Shown here: positions 22,851 through 43,595 of the stretch, piece by piece
Layout: each line of letters starts with the position of its first letter
How positions within the stretch are numbered: position 1 is the first letter of the stretch
IMG/VR virus record: IMGVR_UViG_3300028033_000002
Coordinates: 1 to 48,178 of that record
DNA: 48,178 nucleotides
Direction: 5' to 3' (one strand)
From: a virus
The notes under the pieces: model-generated
Seen by the model: the letters and a program-made list of their open reading frames with translations, nothing else
Told to the model about the DNA's origin: nothing
Databases searched by the model: none
Position numbers and translations under genes: made by a program

Positions 22851-23367
22851 TAGATTCCCCCTTGAGCGCTTGCTCTAACAAACGTACTGCGTGTTCATAA
22901 GCATTAGATTCACCTTGCGAAAACATACAAGCTTCACGTTTCCATCTTTTATGTGCTTCATCGTCTAAAGTGTTAAGCTGACTTAAGACTCTGAAAGCTG
23001 CATCCACCCGCTTTTGCAGCTCTGCATTCTCATCTCTTAAACCAAGCAGTTTTTCAGCTTGCGTTTCAATCACTTCGTTTTGATGAACGAGCTTTTGACC
23101 TTGCTCTTTTATGTTGTCGTTAAGCATCTGATTTCTGCGTTCCAGCTCATCCACTTTGGATTGTCTAGCTGTATACATTGCGCTTTGCCCATCTGTGTAC
23201 GCATCATTCAGTCTCGACTTCATTTCAGCGACTTGAAGCGTTAATGCATCCACTTTGGGTTGTTGGTGTTGCTCTCCTGCCAAATACATAGCTTGAGCTA
23301 AACACTTAGTTGATTCCCATACGTGTCGGTTTTGCTTCCAAGCTTCTTCAAATAATTCACTTCTCAT
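22834..23367 (-). CDS. Hypothetical coiled-coil protein
   Basis: A 177-aa protein with a long coiled coil (about 40-130: KVDELERRNQMLNDNIKEQG, AEKLLGLRDENAELQKRVD). The N-terminus (FEEAWKQNRHVW) and C-terminal helices are common in small Acinetobacter phage proteins of unknown role. The ATG at 23367 overlaps the upstream stop. No enzymatic motif is visible. Confidence 0.68.
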   Translation of the reverse strand: MRSELFEEAWKQNRHVWESTKCLAQAMYLAGEQHQQPKVDALTLQVAEMKSRLNDAYTDGQSAMYTARQSKVDELERRNQMLNDNIKEQGQKLVHQNEVIETQAEKLLGLRDENAELQKRVDAAFRVLSQLNTLDDEAHKRWKREACMFSQGESNAYEHAVRLLEQALKGESNESST

Positions 23368-25768: not shown

Positions 25769-26756
25769 TTCCCATTTCCTCTTTTGCGATCAATTGTTGA
25801 ATTTCATTCCAGCGGTTATTTGCTTGTGATGCGTTTTGAATTGCTGGCGTGAACTGCTGCTTAGGTGCGAATAGACCCGTGTAGTTACCAGTGATTGAAG
25901 TTTTCAAAGACTCATTGCTGCCGTCATAACCCCACTTCACGAAATCTTTGTAGATCGTGTTGAGTGCGTTTTTAGTCAGCTTGGTTTTAGAAGTCGTTGA
26001 TCGATTAGAAACAAACTGCTCCCAAAGCTCCAAATCACAAAGATTTGAAAAAGTGTTTTTAGTGAGCTTGACTACTTCGTCATAAGACAATTTACGAGCC
26101 TTGTCTTTGCGTTCAGCTTCGGCTTTTGCTTTCGCTTCTGCTTCTTGTTTTTCTAACTCAAGTTGATCCTGTTTTTTCTTTTCTTGAAAACAGTAAAAAT
26201 GAGTCTCCAAAGGTTTTTTAGAGCGAAGCGACTTAATTAATAATTCTATAGATAGAGTTCTATAAATTAATTCTATTGTGTCTTTACTAGGTAAAGTAGC
26301 TATCGCTTCACTAGGTAAAGTGCTGCCCTTTACTAAGGAAAGTGCTTTACTAGGTAAAGTGGTACTTTCTTTAGTGAAGTGCTCAACCAATGAAACCTCA
26401 TTAATCTGGTACTCATTACCCTTTCGACTGTTCTCGCTAACCAGTGTAATAACGCCCAAATTAAGCAACTCTTTAAGACCGTTACTCACTGTTTTTGTGC
26501 TTAGTTTTTTTGAGCCTGGTAGCTTGCCGCCTTGCAACTGAGAATAGCTAACATAGTCAGTCACCTTGTCTTTAAAGCCGTTAATACGATCCTCAAGTTC
26601 CGCATAGACATTCTTTGCCGCATCACTTAAAAATGGACGAACCTCTTGGCGGTATAATCGACTAGACATGACATAGCCTTTTTCAAACTTGTCAGCCATT
26701 TTTTTACCTTTGTTGAATTGGAGGAGATTGTCCTCGTGTTTTGGAAGTGCTGTCAT
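25749..26756 (-). CDS. Replication initiator O-like protein
   Basis: A 335-aa protein with an N-terminal winged-helix region (about 25-120; FEKGYVMSSRLYRQEVRPFL, STKTVSNGLKELLNLGVITLV) that should bind the iterons located inside its own gene. Residues 126-160 are encoded by the iterons and show a repeated TLPSK/TLPSE. A Lys/Glu/Ala-rich helix (190-225) links to a C-terminal domain that probably contacts the P-like protein. The ATG at 26756 overlaps the upstream stop. Confidence 0.82.
   Translation of the reverse strand: MTALPKHEDNLLQFNKGKKMADKFEKGYVMSSRLYRQEVRPFLSDAAKNVYAELEDRINGFKDKVTDYVSYSQLQGGKLPGSKKLSTKTVSNGLKELLNLGVITLVSENSRKGNEYQINEVSLVEHFTKESTTLPSKALSLVKGSTLPSEAIATLPSKDTIELIYRTLSIELLIKSLRSKKPLETHFYCFQEKKKQDQLELEKQEAEAKAKAEAERKDKARKLSYDEVVKLTKNTFSNLCDLELWEQFVSNRSTTSKTKLTKNALNTIYKDFVKWGYDGSNESLKTSITGNYTGLFAPKQQFTPAIQNASQANNRWNEIQQLIAKEEMGNDNFGF
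26225..26379. other. Probable prophage replication origin (iterons plus AT-rich stretch)
   Basis: Five related 15-mers of consensus CTTTACTAGGTAAAG, each nearly palindromic, lie at 26282, 26306, 26328, 26345 and 26365. The copies at 26282 and 26345 are perfect. Next to them, 26233-26277 is very AT-rich (ATTAATAATTCTATAG). Iterons plus a melting region inside the initiator gene is the lambda ori layout. Spacing is 17-24 bp. Confidence 0.78.
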
Positions 26757-27433
26757 ACTGCACCCCCAAAATGTTTAGCCAGTACAGCCATGCCTTTTGG
26801 CAGGATAAAGAACTCAATTTTTGTATAGTTGTACGGCTCACCAGACGGCTTTACACCATCCACTTCTTCGAATTTAGTTTCACAATATCCGCGCTCTTGG
26901 CTGTAATGAGTCGAAGCGCGTGATTTGTTGATGTATCTATCCCAACCTTTATCTCGAAGCCACTTAGCAAGATCAGCCTGCTTTACGTTCAGGATTTTGC
27001 AAGCCTGCTGAAACTTCACACCGTTTTCGGTTGCGGTGATGTTTTCAATCGCAGCACTAAGGGTTTTGTTTTCAGCAGCCAATTGGATATTTTTTTCTAC
27101 ATAACCAAGCAATAGGCCGCGCAACTGAACAGGGTTGTCTAGGTCTGGCTGCTGCTCCAACTCTTTCCAGCGTTTAATCACTCGATTACGCAAAACAATG
27201 TTGTAGCCAGTAACCAAAGTCATTGTTAATTCTTCGTCTAACAAATATTCGGTTTGTTGGCGGTTTTGAGCGTCAAAATAGATGCCCCCAAATTTGGGGA
27301 TATCTAAACCAAGCTGTCCAAGCATGTTTTCAACATCACGCTTAACATGGTCATGACGCTTTTCTGTCAAGCCAGCAATTTCACGACTCGACATGGTTTT
27401 TTGATTTTGATTAAATTGTGCTAACATATTCAT
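26753..27433 (-). CDS. Rha/KilAC-type antirepressor
   Basis: A 226-aa protein with an N-terminal Rha domain (MSSREIAGLTEKRHDHVKRDVE, EYLLDEELTMTLVTGYN, RVIKRWKELE) and a C-terminal KilAC-like domain (KFQQACKILNVKQADLAKWL). Such proteins modulate lysogeny and early gene expression. It lies between the Cro/RHH genes and the O-like gene, so it is expressed early in the leftward operon. GGAGG lies 12 bases before the ATG. Confidence 0.85.
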   Translation of the reverse strand: MNMLAQFNQNQKTMSSREIAGLTEKRHDHVKRDVENMLGQLGLDIPKFGGIYFDAQNRQQTEYLLDEELTMTLVTGYNIVLRNRVIKRWKELEQQPDLDNPVQLRGLLLGYVEKNIQLAAENKTLSAAIENITATENGVKFQQACKILNVKQADLAKWLRDKGWDRYINKSRASTHYSQERGYCETKFEEVDGVKPSGEPYNYTKIEFFILPKGMAVLAKHFGGAV

Positions 27434-33988: not shown

Positions 33989-34012
33989 GTTCAACTCCCG
34001 CCATCTCCACCA
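33989..34012 (+). repeat. attR of element 1 and attL of element 2 (ssrA end copy)
   Basis: A 24-bp exact copy of the ssrA 3' end at 103-126. A second integrase begins 180 bp downstream, so this copy is the shared junction of tandem elements. Confidence 0.9.
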
Positions 34013-41492: not shown

Positions 41493-41562
41493 ATGATTAC
41501 CACATAATAAATCAATCAAACTTATGTGTTATAAATTTGGTTATTTTAATAAGGGGGTAATT

Positions 41563-42180
41563 ATGAAAAAAATAGCTTTGACTTGGTTAATCTCATTGGT
41601 GTGTGGTGGTGCCTATGCTGCAGATTGGGTCGCCATTGGGAACGGTCAAGATGGATATGCTTATTATGTTGATTTTGACTATTACAAATATGATAAGAAA
41701 ACTAATGCGGCTGATATGTGGTTTAAAAAAGAAAGGGCGAATGGATCCACATACTTCACACAAAAAAAATCATTATCTAGATTCTACTGTGACAGCAAAA
41801 CTTACAGAACATTATCCGCAATAACATACTTAGCATCAGGGGATGTCGAAAATACTTATAGAGACAATTATCTAATCCCAGCAGAAACTGTATTTCCAGA
41901 TACAACCGGTGAACTTTTATGGGATGTTGCATGTGGAACGCCTGCAAAAGGCTTGGATTTTAAGTATGCGAATTTAGAAGATTTTAGTGACTATCAAGAA
42001 TATCAGAGAGCATCTTATGCATACTTGAGAATGAAGCCTAAGCCAAATATTGAATTTTTCGGTCAATTAACACCTCATGTAAAAATAGAGAATTACCGTA
42101 ATTATGATGACTATCTTAAAGACGTGAAAACAGAACTAGATAAACTGAGAGAACAAAATATTATCAAAAATTATAAATGA
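41563..42180 (+). CDS. Secreted Adhesin-E-like protein
   Basis: A 205-aa protein with a clear signal peptide (KKIALTWLISLVCGGAYA, cleavage near AYA-AD). The mature part follows the surface-adhesin protein E pattern: DWVAIGNGQDGYAYYVDFDYY, MWFKKE, LSRFYCDSKTYRTLSAITYL and a late VAC. Two Cys (in FYC and VAC) could pair. It has GGGGG before the ATG at 41563 and its own terminator, so it looks like an independently expressed cargo gene that alters the envelope of the lysogen. Confidence 0.72.
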   Translation: MKKIALTWLISLVCGGAYAADWVAIGNGQDGYAYYVDFDYYKYDKKTNAADMWFKKERANGSTYFTQKKSLSRFYCDSKTYRTLSAITYLASGDVENTYRDNYLIPAETVFPDTTGELLWDVACGTPAKGLDFKYANLEDFSDYQEYQRASYAYLRMKPKPNIEFFGQLTPHVKIENYRNYDDYLKDVKTELDKLREQNIIKNYK

Positions 42181-42181
42181 G

Positions 42182-42201
42182 CCACCTTCGGGTGGTTTTT
42201 T
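42182..42201 (+). terminator. Terminator (CCACC-TTCG-GGTGG) after the Adhesin-E-like gene
   Basis: A hairpin with a TTCG loop followed by six T, identical in stem-loop to the terminator at 7325-7348 of element 1. Confidence 0.88.
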
Positions 42202-42210
42202 AATACTAGC

Positions 42211-43120
42211 GAGATGTGCTCAAAACTGAGCGCAATTTTTCGCCGTGTGAGCGAACGCAATTTTGCGCTGGCTAGATGTCACCAAATTTGGGGGTATCTA
42301 TTTTACGAGAAAGTCGTAAAACAATACCCCTGCTCAATTTTGAGCAAGCTCATTTGCATGTGACTGCACGCGAATATCATTTACGCTCCACTAATTTTCA
42401 AGAGCGCAATTTTACGCAGTCACCATTTTTGGTGGTCGGTAGCGGATTTCCGCTATCGGTATCAGTACAGGAATTCCTGTATCGGTAGAGTGTCTCCAAT
42501 TTTGGATATACCCCTGTCCAAATCTGGACACCCTCCCCAACTTTGGGGAAGCATCTACCCCAATGGGGGATATGAGCAAACTTGCTCGCATTTCAAAAGT
42601 GACCAAGTGTTTTTCACCTAGAAACCTGCTCCATTTTTTTGTGGAAGCAGATAAAACCAAAATCGACCAAGTTAATTCAGGATTTCAAATCCCAAATTTT
42701 TGGGAACTGAGTTACTCAAAGTCACTCAGTCCAACTTTATGCAATGCGTGGAGTTGGGAATATCCTCAACTTGAGGACATTGAAGTTTTACCGATACCCA
42801 AAATCTGGGTTTCGGTAATTTCTGAAAAGCATATTCACACTGTGTGGGTCTACGAAAGTTTCGTAGTTAAGACTTTTACCCCAGTGAGGTAGAACGAAGT
42901 TTTTCGCTGAAGTGGGCCCATCCACCATTGGTGGTTGGATCGTGCGAATTACTTATCCTCAAATTAAGGAGAACTACACTTTTTGTGTAGTGGGTTTTCA
43001 TGCTTCCAGGAGGGTATCCGAAATATTTCCGATACCTAGCTCCTAAATTTTTAGGAACTAGCTAGTTCAAATAAAGATAGTCAGTCACCGATGACGGCGC
43101 AAAATTGCGTCATCATCGAT
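42211..43120. other. Dense array of diverse palindromes/hairpins (about 900 bp)
   Basis: This gene-free block between two convergent genes contains more than twenty different short dyads. Examples: 42218-42231 (GCTCA/TGAGC), 42256-42267, 42282-42291, 42331-42346, 42440-42455, 42466-42481 (perfect 16-bp), 42515-42530, 42534-42549, 42574-42587, 42690-42705, 42763-42777, 42788-42818, 42850-42866, 42922-42934, 42973-42991, 43013-43036, 43041-43056 and 43055-43068 (perfect 14-bp). Some are nested: GGGGTAT/ATACCCC (42291-42330) encloses TTTTACGA/TCGTAAAA. GTGACTGC (42360-42367) pairs with GCAGTCAC (42416-42423). Most stem sequences differ, but centres are usually A-tract then T-tract (CAANNTTG-like). 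No array-wide T-run or long convincing ORF is present. Confidence 0.85.
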
Positions 43121-43127
43121 ATAAAAC

Positions 43128-43517
43128 TCAGTTAGGTAATTCGTTTGGCTCATCATCTTCAAATATGATTTTAAATGCCGGCTGCACATTGGCACTAATA
43201 TCCATCTTCTGCTTATCAGAATACCCATGATTGGCCAGCATCAGCTTAACAATGGTGCTGTTCATTGAACTACCTAAGCCGCCGTCAATCAGCATCATCT
43301 CCTGCTTCATCTTGATAGCGTCTAACGTGTCCGAGAAATCTTCATCCTTTCCTGCCCATTCATACAGACTAGAACGTGATGCACCAAGATAACATCCGAG
43401 TCCTGCAACGCTTGGAACGGTATTACCAACGTCCTCAAAGCCTTTGATTAAGTATTCTTTGGCCTTAGCAATAACTTCATCTGTTAAATTCGTGGGTCTG
43501 CCCAACTCTTTTTTCAT
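43128..43517 (-). CDS. terS: Satellite small terminase subunit
   Basis: A 129-aa protein resembling the gp3-type small terminase subunits: ELGRPTNLTDEVIAKAKEYL, then VAGLGCYLGASRSSLYEWAGKDEDFSDTL (HTH), a helical core (STIVKLMLANHGYSDKQKM) and a C-terminal tail AFKIIFEDDEP. No TerL is visible beside it, which suggests it recruits another phage's TerL to satellite DNA. The tail resembles that of the element 1 TerS. The ATG at 43517 is preferred over a GTG at 43526. It is the last gene of a leftward operon. Confidence 0.83.
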   Translation of the reverse strand: MKKELGRPTNLTDEVIAKAKEYLIKGFEDVGNTVPSVAGLGCYLGASRSSLYEWAGKDEDFSDTLDAIKMKQEMMLIDGGLGSSMNSTIVKLMLANHGYSDKQKMDISANVQPAFKIIFEDDEPNELPN

Positions 43518-43595
43518 AATTTCCACCCTGACTCAAAGCTGAATATTTTCAACATGAGAGGCCAAGCACTCGCCTAAACCTCCCATCGCCAATAA

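Follow-up and report, generated by a model that had tools for sequence, protein, structure and literature searches.

A palindrome array in an Acinetobacter mobile element as a probable library of operators for foreign phage regulators

The window analysed in this study, i.e. all 48,178 nucleotides of the virus record IMGVR_UViG_3300028033_000002, contains a 0.9 kb strip of non-coding DNA that is crowded with palindromes of unlike sequence and is flanked by two convergent genes, which raises the question of what such a strip is for. Its surroundings are as follows.

103-126 and 33989-34012: 3' end of the tmRNA, 24 bp, in two copies
127-34012: predicted prophage
41557..42180, plus strand: left neighbour of the array, a secreted Adhesin_E-like protein (gene calling and domain annotation)
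42181-42205: terminator-like hairpin 3' of the Adhesin_E-like gene, read from the sequence
42206..43127, no strand: non-coding array of about 25 unlike dyads, a predicted operator library, in the gap between the two convergent genes
43128..43526, minus strand: gene to the right of the array, encoding the terminase small subunit (GP3_package) and converging on the left neighbour

The two copies of the tmRNA 3' end delimit the prophage and place the start of a second, array-bearing element at the latter copy; the two elements are thus tandem integrations at a single att site. The early part of the second element comprises an integrase (34132), an int-alpA RNA and a C4 antisense RNA (both Rfam), a DUF3987 primase/helicase and an SSB, followed by the Adhesin_E-like gene, the array and then, on the opposite strand, terS and DNA-ejection-like genes. 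The element, which therefore has its own terS and DNA-ejection-like genes, is a phage satellite or prophage-like element of Acinetobacter, the probable host genus being deduced from all relatives. Neither TerS nor the Adhesin_E open reading frame (ORF) retrieved relatives when searched against viral contigs, and a TerS search of 99 family genomes was likewise empty.

Dyads were counted greedily and without overlap over positions 42178-43130, with mononucleotide shuffles as controls. Palindromes were found where the initial annotation had placed them, with 13 dyads (arm of at least 6, loop of at most 6) as against 1.3 ± 1.1 in the shuffles; arms of at least 7 yielded 10 dyads (0.35 in shuffles), and arms of at least 5 with loops of at most 4 yielded 22 (3.9 in shuffles). 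This density is five to ten times that of the shuffles or of the remaining window, where the first setting gives an average of approximately 1.9 dyads per 953 bp and a maximum of 5; because palindromes outside the array are at near-chance density, quasi-palindrome correction was dismissed as a neutral explanation. The 8-bp pair 42360-42367/42416-42423 is present in the sequence, and the A/T-rich centre said to be common to the dyads can now be written precisely as XYZCA-n1..5-TGZ'Y'X', a design that occurs at 10 sites in the array as compared to 0.28 in dinucleotide shuffles. It had also been proposed that symmetry rather than sequence is conserved. This holds within the array, where the stems differ and no single repeated sequence of the CRISPR, REP/BIME or attC kind is seen, but not beyond it, as the stems of single dyads turn up again both in phage regulator genes and in further Acinetobacter arrays. 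The array has no conserved open frame: the longest ORF is 109 aa, palindromes lie in all phases and protein matches are operator-sized only, and so the notion of a block encoding a conserved protein was abandoned.

The initial annotation had weighed two options, namely a very large ornate non-coding RNA (of the GOLLD or ROOL kind) or protein sites on DNA. The former derives support from folding, which is better than in shuffled controls on both strands: the plus strand folds at -354 kcal/mol versus -244 ± 6.7 when shuffled (z = -16.6), and the minus strand gives z = -13.8. However, an Rfam search of both strands at the gathering threshold found no match to any large RNA, the folding is of equal strength on both strands, and there is no bias towards G-U pairs. 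The remark on the scarcity of G-U pairs was indeed correct, since interruptions of extended dyads in six arrays comprise four G.T and four A.C mismatches, i.e. no strand bias.

One module of the array is also found, in frame, within the rha gene of the neighbouring prophage (27275-27306).

26753..27433, minus strand: rha of the neighbouring prophage (Phage_pRha + ANT), with residues R26, D28 and H29
27286..27299, minus strand: predicted auto-operator CCCCAAATTTGGGG inside the prophage rha gene, with triplet CCC, as the code described below predicts

A palindrome occupies the same codon position, with a differing stem, in almost every Acinetobacter Rha/antirepressor gene examined, and the same codons carry palindromes with different stems in the Rha genes of 80 viral contigs with a GC content of 0.31-0.62 (e.g. 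GTCCAnnttTGGAC, CCCCAgtttTGGGG, GAGCAAATTTGCTC, GCTCAgtttTGAGC, ATCCActttTGGAT and CCTCAgtttTGAGG), some extending to 28 bp. A class-wide Rha search was nearly empty (1/229) and viral contigs were taken instead, from which 70 unique domains were assembled. The design of the Rha operator is XYZCA-nn-TTTG-Z'Y'X', where XYZ is a variable triplet. At the fixed dyad axis of the 70 domains 74% of positions form Watson-Crick pairs, as compared to 16-45% at other axes, and in 61 of them codons 46 and 49 are exact reverse complements of each other, where random synonymous codons would lead one to expect 3.7; consequently, covariation between the encoded amino acids follows reverse-complement codons (S-G, S-A, P-G and L-E). 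The inner stem pairs include no G.T and five A.C mismatches, while at one paired position of the variable stem 99% of the domains are Watson-Crick, all four kinds of pair being represented and G.T absent. Furthermore, shuffling the right halves among Rha genes reduces the number of paired positions from 383 to 283 ± 9.

In gene pairs matched for overall protein identity, residues 26, 28 and 29 were the only positions outside the palindrome to track the stem triplet (excess agreement of 0.56, 0.70 and 0.55, respectively; 0.16 for the next position). For these residues, and with the proviso that phylogenetic non-independence inflates the raw counts, CCC corresponds to R-D-H (12/12), GTC to Q-Q-H (19/19), GAG to R-(P/S/T)-D (11/11 for R and D), CCT to R-D-N (3/3), ATC mostly to Q/E-F-H (14/14 for H) and GCT to (mostly E)-(K/R)-N (5/5 for N). 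Modelling of the window's Rha with AlphaFold (block pLDDT of about 86-94 over residues 11-90) places residues 26, 28 and 29 at the N-terminal end of helix 27-41, which is the second helix of a winged helix-turn-helix; the residues encoded by the palindrome fall between this helix and the wing strand. A fold search of the PDB with this model gave no confident match, nor was a sequence relative of Rha found in the PDB. A site within the gene of a DNA-binding regulator would naturally be an auto-operator, and because the triplet tracks the three residues that lie at the N-terminal end of the recognition helix, the intragenic Rha dyads are predicted to be auto-operators under a readable protein-DNA code. 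The second option of the initial annotation, protein sites on DNA, is thereby favoured, in that intragenic dyads covary with DNA-recognition residues, which in turn speaks against the large RNA. A trans-acting RNA pairing as a kissing antisense with the identical palindromes of regulator mRNAs would account for palindromes that are self-complementary and match regulator genes, yet it leaves both the 26/28/29 residue code and the absence of G-U pairs unexplained and is considered highly improbable. The C4 antisense sRNAs of Acinetobacter (PMC5320573) were also considered as partners of the palindromes and no link was found. Separately, a rha-ORF11CD3 gene in L025 (3378-3899) bears a larger nested dyad, CTTGGTC..CATTTGAAATG..GACCAAG, which resembles array segment 42588-42609.

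The same code applies in the HK022-Roi type family, where KRHDNV pairs with CCTCAaTTGAGG (CCTCA) in E. coli and Acinetobacter phages and KEHKNV with GCTCAaTTGAGC (GCTCA); the roi gene of HK022 itself carries the dyad CTGCATTGCAG (CTGCAtTGCAG) at the same codons as its relatives. Kinship is an unlikely cause of the code because of the identity matching and the agreement between families. KilA-N regulators represent a third, independent case, with fixed codons and axis, variable stems and the centre GGAATTCC, their dyad axis being 76% paired as compared to at most 45% at other axes. If the rule is right that at least three DNA-binding families of phage regulators write their own operator into their own codons, then the specificity of thousands of uncharacterised Rha, Roi and KilA-N proteins would be readable from gene sequence, and phage cross-talk would become predictable and testable. 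Small ORFs of the Ash/C4 region with array-type operators are seen in the P4-like satellites L068-L071 (at about 7.8-8.3 kb) and in L076 (6559-7056); they contain two or three operators in frame (TGAGCAAATTTGCTCA, ATCCAAATTTGGAT and ACTACGAAACTTTCGTAGT), and the segment is mosaic between four prophages of one genome.

The individual sites of the array may be set against these regulator families.

42218..42231: dyad GCTCA-AAAC-TGAGC, Rha/Roi specificity triplet GCT
42256..42267: dyad CGCAATTTTGCG, recurring in other arrays
42273..42304, plus strand: rha-type operator with rha-like flanks, (L)DVTKFGGIYF; 91% identity to the intragenic operator of the prophage rha (27275-27306)
42301..42321: dyad TTTTACGA-gaaag-TCGTAAAA, from the dyad count
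42332..42345: dyad GCTCA-ATTT-TGAGC, triplet GCT
42360..42423: longer-range inverted pair GTGACTGC / GCAGTCAC around a smaller stem, read from the sequence
42421..42434: dyad CACCA-TTTT-TGGTG, triplet CAC, a class absent from the Rha set
42440..42455: dyad TAGCGGATTTCCGCTA, centre like that of the KilA-N intragenic operator, assigned by resemblance only
42466..42481: dyad TACAGGAATTCCTGTA, which other Acinetobacter genomes carry in identical form as a palindrome in their KilA-N/ANT antirepressor genes (codons TGIPVS)
42493..42514: CTCCAATTTTGGATATACCCC, ATC-class half site with flank; its reverse complement resembles the rha of L093 (GGGGTATATCCAAAACTGGATACACCCC)
42516..42529: dyad GTCCA-AATC-TGGAC, triplet GTC
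42535..42548: dyad CCCCA-ACTT-TGGGG, triplet CCC
42558..42568: dyad CCCCA-A-TGGGG, core of a Roi-type (SRHDKV) operator
42574..42587: dyad GAGCA-AACT-TGCTC, triplet GAG, in block 42547-42609 conserved among Acinetobacter arrays
42690..42705: dyad TCCCAAATTTTTGGGA, from the dyad count
42764..42776: dyad CCTCA-ACT-TGAGG, triplet CCT, KRHDNV class of both the Rha and Roi families
42796..42810: dyad ACCCA-AAATC-TGGGT, inside a longer imperfect stem
42850..42866: dyad CTACGAAAGTTTCGTAG, identical to a palindrome in Acinetobacter ANT/KilAC regulator genes (codons YESFVV)
42923..42933: dyad CACCA-T-TGGTG, triplet CAC
42973..42991: dyad ACTACAC-TTTTT-GTGTAGT, with an identical site in the array of G015
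43055..43068: dyad GAACTAGCTAGTTC, from the dyad count
43098..43109: dyad CGCAAAATTGCG inside GACGGCGCAAAATTGCGTC, common to three other arrays

Seven of the ten array sites carry one of the six Rha triplets (GCT twice, GTC, CCC twice, GAG and CCT; p = 6e-6). Across eight arrays these triplets are present in 28 of 42 sites (binomial 2e-19), a figure to be read in the knowledge that modules are partly common by descent and the sites are not independent. Additionally, the dyads at 42466 and 42850 are identical to operators of KilA-N and ANT-type genes, respectively, the former (42466-42481) having both the dyad around the KilA-N centre and the codons (D)TGIPVS. Pattern searches for a cognate regulator of the dyad at 42256..42267 found none; the pattern ACGCAA..TTGCGT (the class of the dyad at 43098) is too short and matched mostly housekeeping genes, such that no regulator was assigned, and ACTACAC..GTGTAGT matched mostly in unrelated places. 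It is well supported on sequence grounds that the array dyads are predicted binding sites of phage regulator proteins, although about half of the 25 window dyads, those of the CGCAAAATTGCG class among them, matched no regulator. They lie between genes rather than inside a cognate regulator gene, with short Rha-like peptides only. Two further operator-like dyads, ATCCACTTTGGAT and CCTCAAGTTGAGG, occur off the array inside genes at window positions 23149 and 38829, possibly by chance.

Related arrays were found only in Acinetobacter. A 70-bp blastn match lies in an A. schindleri phage-plasmid, in the non-coding gap between a block of replication genes and the major capsid gene, while additional arrays, from A. 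bouvetii, A. lwoffii and other species of the genus, emerged from a pattern scan and a genus scan. The viral contig L196 (25.6 kb) has its array in a convergent gap between an integrase/DnaB module and the structural module. Blastn relatives are few (7 of 176 genomes), and blastn against phages gave none; matches in L289 and L290 were rejected as chance, and palindromes in L072 (rha) and L073-L079 (ant) were rejected as arrays, being operators of homologous genes. Modules of 20-65 bp are common to the arrays, in either orientation and differing order, and recur in Acinetobacter plasmids, prophages and satellites. Both orientations and a shuffled module order are to be expected of DNA sites; conversely, such inverted and shuffled modules, in which the order and orientation of hairpins vary from array to array, are hard to reconcile with one folded RNA, and the large RNA is thus very improbable.

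The recurrence of modules also bears on whether the palindromes are recombinational debris, that is, relics of successive rha and ant fragments piled up at a hot spot at a module boundary. In favour of such an origin, the translation of one module is still recognisable as rha (LDVTKFGGIYF), and other modules yield short peptides resembling Rha. However, a translated comparison of the array with rha genes yielded operator-sized pieces and no other rha or ant gene parts, the dyad centres have lost the Phe codon while their stems are still perfect, and inverted and shuffled modules keep perfect symmetry. Moreover, conservation within the block common to eight arrays is highest in the GAGCA/TGCTC stem (96% versus 82% for other columns). 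Debris is consequently regarded as quite improbable. No insertion boundaries were seen around the dyads.

Several other features of related elements were recorded. In L026 (7850-8260) and L196 (4620-5040), three to four tandem copies of a 117-bp unit with ACTACGAAACTTTCGTAGT and GACGGCGCAAAATTGCGTC are present, which is array growth by duplication. The arrays of L024 (7400-9186) and L027 (7420-9580) contain paired direct repeats of varying sequence with a period of approximately 10 bp (e.g. CATCAAGGTACATCAAGG and CATCTAAGTACATCTAAGT), possibly sites of another type of regulator. Beside one array (L008, query 187-269) lies an element of 66-83 bp that is common to about 36 small Acinetobacter plasmids and is perhaps an oriV or oriT.

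The array could instead be a set of docking sites, and this is the main alternative to a decoy: helper regulators binding to the array would mark satellite DNA or switch its late module with no titration involved, variants being a roadblock between the convergent genes or an aid to replication or packaging. In the window as in L196, the array sits where the early and late modules meet; this position is consistent with docking or sensing, as are the adjacency of the array to TerS and the presence of two or three such operators, near regulatory RNA, in Ash/C4-region ORFs of related satellites. Nevertheless, a promoter-like arrangement is neither needed nor seen between the convergent genes, many unlike specificities are ill suited to one helper, and arrays are known also from phage-plasmids and away from terS, such that docking is judged unlikely. 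A pac-like role, as had been suggested, gained no evidence.

The explanation we prefer, with a probability of roughly 0.6, is that the array gathers operators of many foreign phage regulators into a library, which most likely serves as a multi-specific DNA decoy. It is the best reading because a strip of sites between convergent genes, away from regulator genes, has little to regulate in cis. The array would represent double-stranded DNA sites for Rha, Roi, KilA-N and related antirepressors, each dyad belonging to another specificity class. A regulator would normally carry its own site within its gene, just after the codons of the recognition helix, whereas here a non-coding stretch of 0.9 kb that separates the early module from the late/packaging one would bring together sites of many specificities. 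As the element replicates, copies of the array would bind and neutralise regulators or defence proteins of resident or co-infecting phages, and an element with many specificities may escape many BstA-like proteins or unbalance many antirepressor circuits. The computations establish the dyads themselves, the sites within genes, the complementary codons, the residue-triplet code and the enrichment of its triplets in the arrays; protein binding to the array, titration by that binding, the benefit to the element and hence the decoy function are what we infer from these data. Several points count against this explanation: the dyads that matched no regulator, longer-range pairs such as 42360/42416 for which it offers no account, the direct-repeat build of aba (see below), and the small number of relatives with arrays, which were found only in Acinetobacter. 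Helper interference, as suggested earlier, is compatible with an operator-library decoy, and cruciform formation is not needed. More tentatively, and with greater doubt, Acinetobacter mobile elements might possess heritable libraries of foreign operators, i.e. non-CRISPR, DNA-based immunity strips that neutralise antirepressor families and BstA-like defence proteins, in which module shuffling gains and loses specificities, with three regulator families having self-encoded operators under a readable code. If the decoy reading is right, satellites and phages maintain an inventory, written in DNA, of the control sites that their rivals use; this would be a new kind of conflict between phages, organised much like a memory.

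The genomes of mycobacteriophages contain many regulator-binding sites (stoperators, or multi-operator immunity), which are copies of one sequence for one repressor, while the array places many unlike sequences side by side. For HK022, a 1996 study by Clerget and Boccard, which PMC3430580 cites, reportedly found that Roi binds within its own gene, at a site adjacent to an IHF site; the roi dyad lies at codons shared with its relatives, yet there is one site per gene and one specificity, as opposed to many in the array. GOLLD, ROOL and OLE are similar to the array in size, phage context and dense hairpins, but the array lacks an Rfam match and behaves as double-stranded DNA sites. REP/BIME, CRISPR, integron attC and Rickettsia palindromic elements are likewise arrays or in-frame palindrome insertions; they repeat one sequence, whereas here the stems differ and follow a protein code. 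The closest parallel is aba/BstA. BstA of the Salmonella phage BTP1 is a KilA-N-like phage defence protein that is suppressed by the cognate aba DNA of its own locus (PMC8585504). The aba element, 63 bp in length with terminal direct CCCGCC repeats and located at the start of bstA, acts in DNA form and in trans, at high copy only, and its variants do not cross-react (PMC8585504). No terminal direct CCCGCC repeats were seen in the array sequence. The array as proposed here would share with aba, a short DNA element at the locus of a KilA-N-like protein, the cognate specificity and the multi-copy action as DNA in trans; it differs in that aba is a direct-repeat element rather than a palindrome, while the array combines many unlike dyads of many specificities at a distance from regulator genes.
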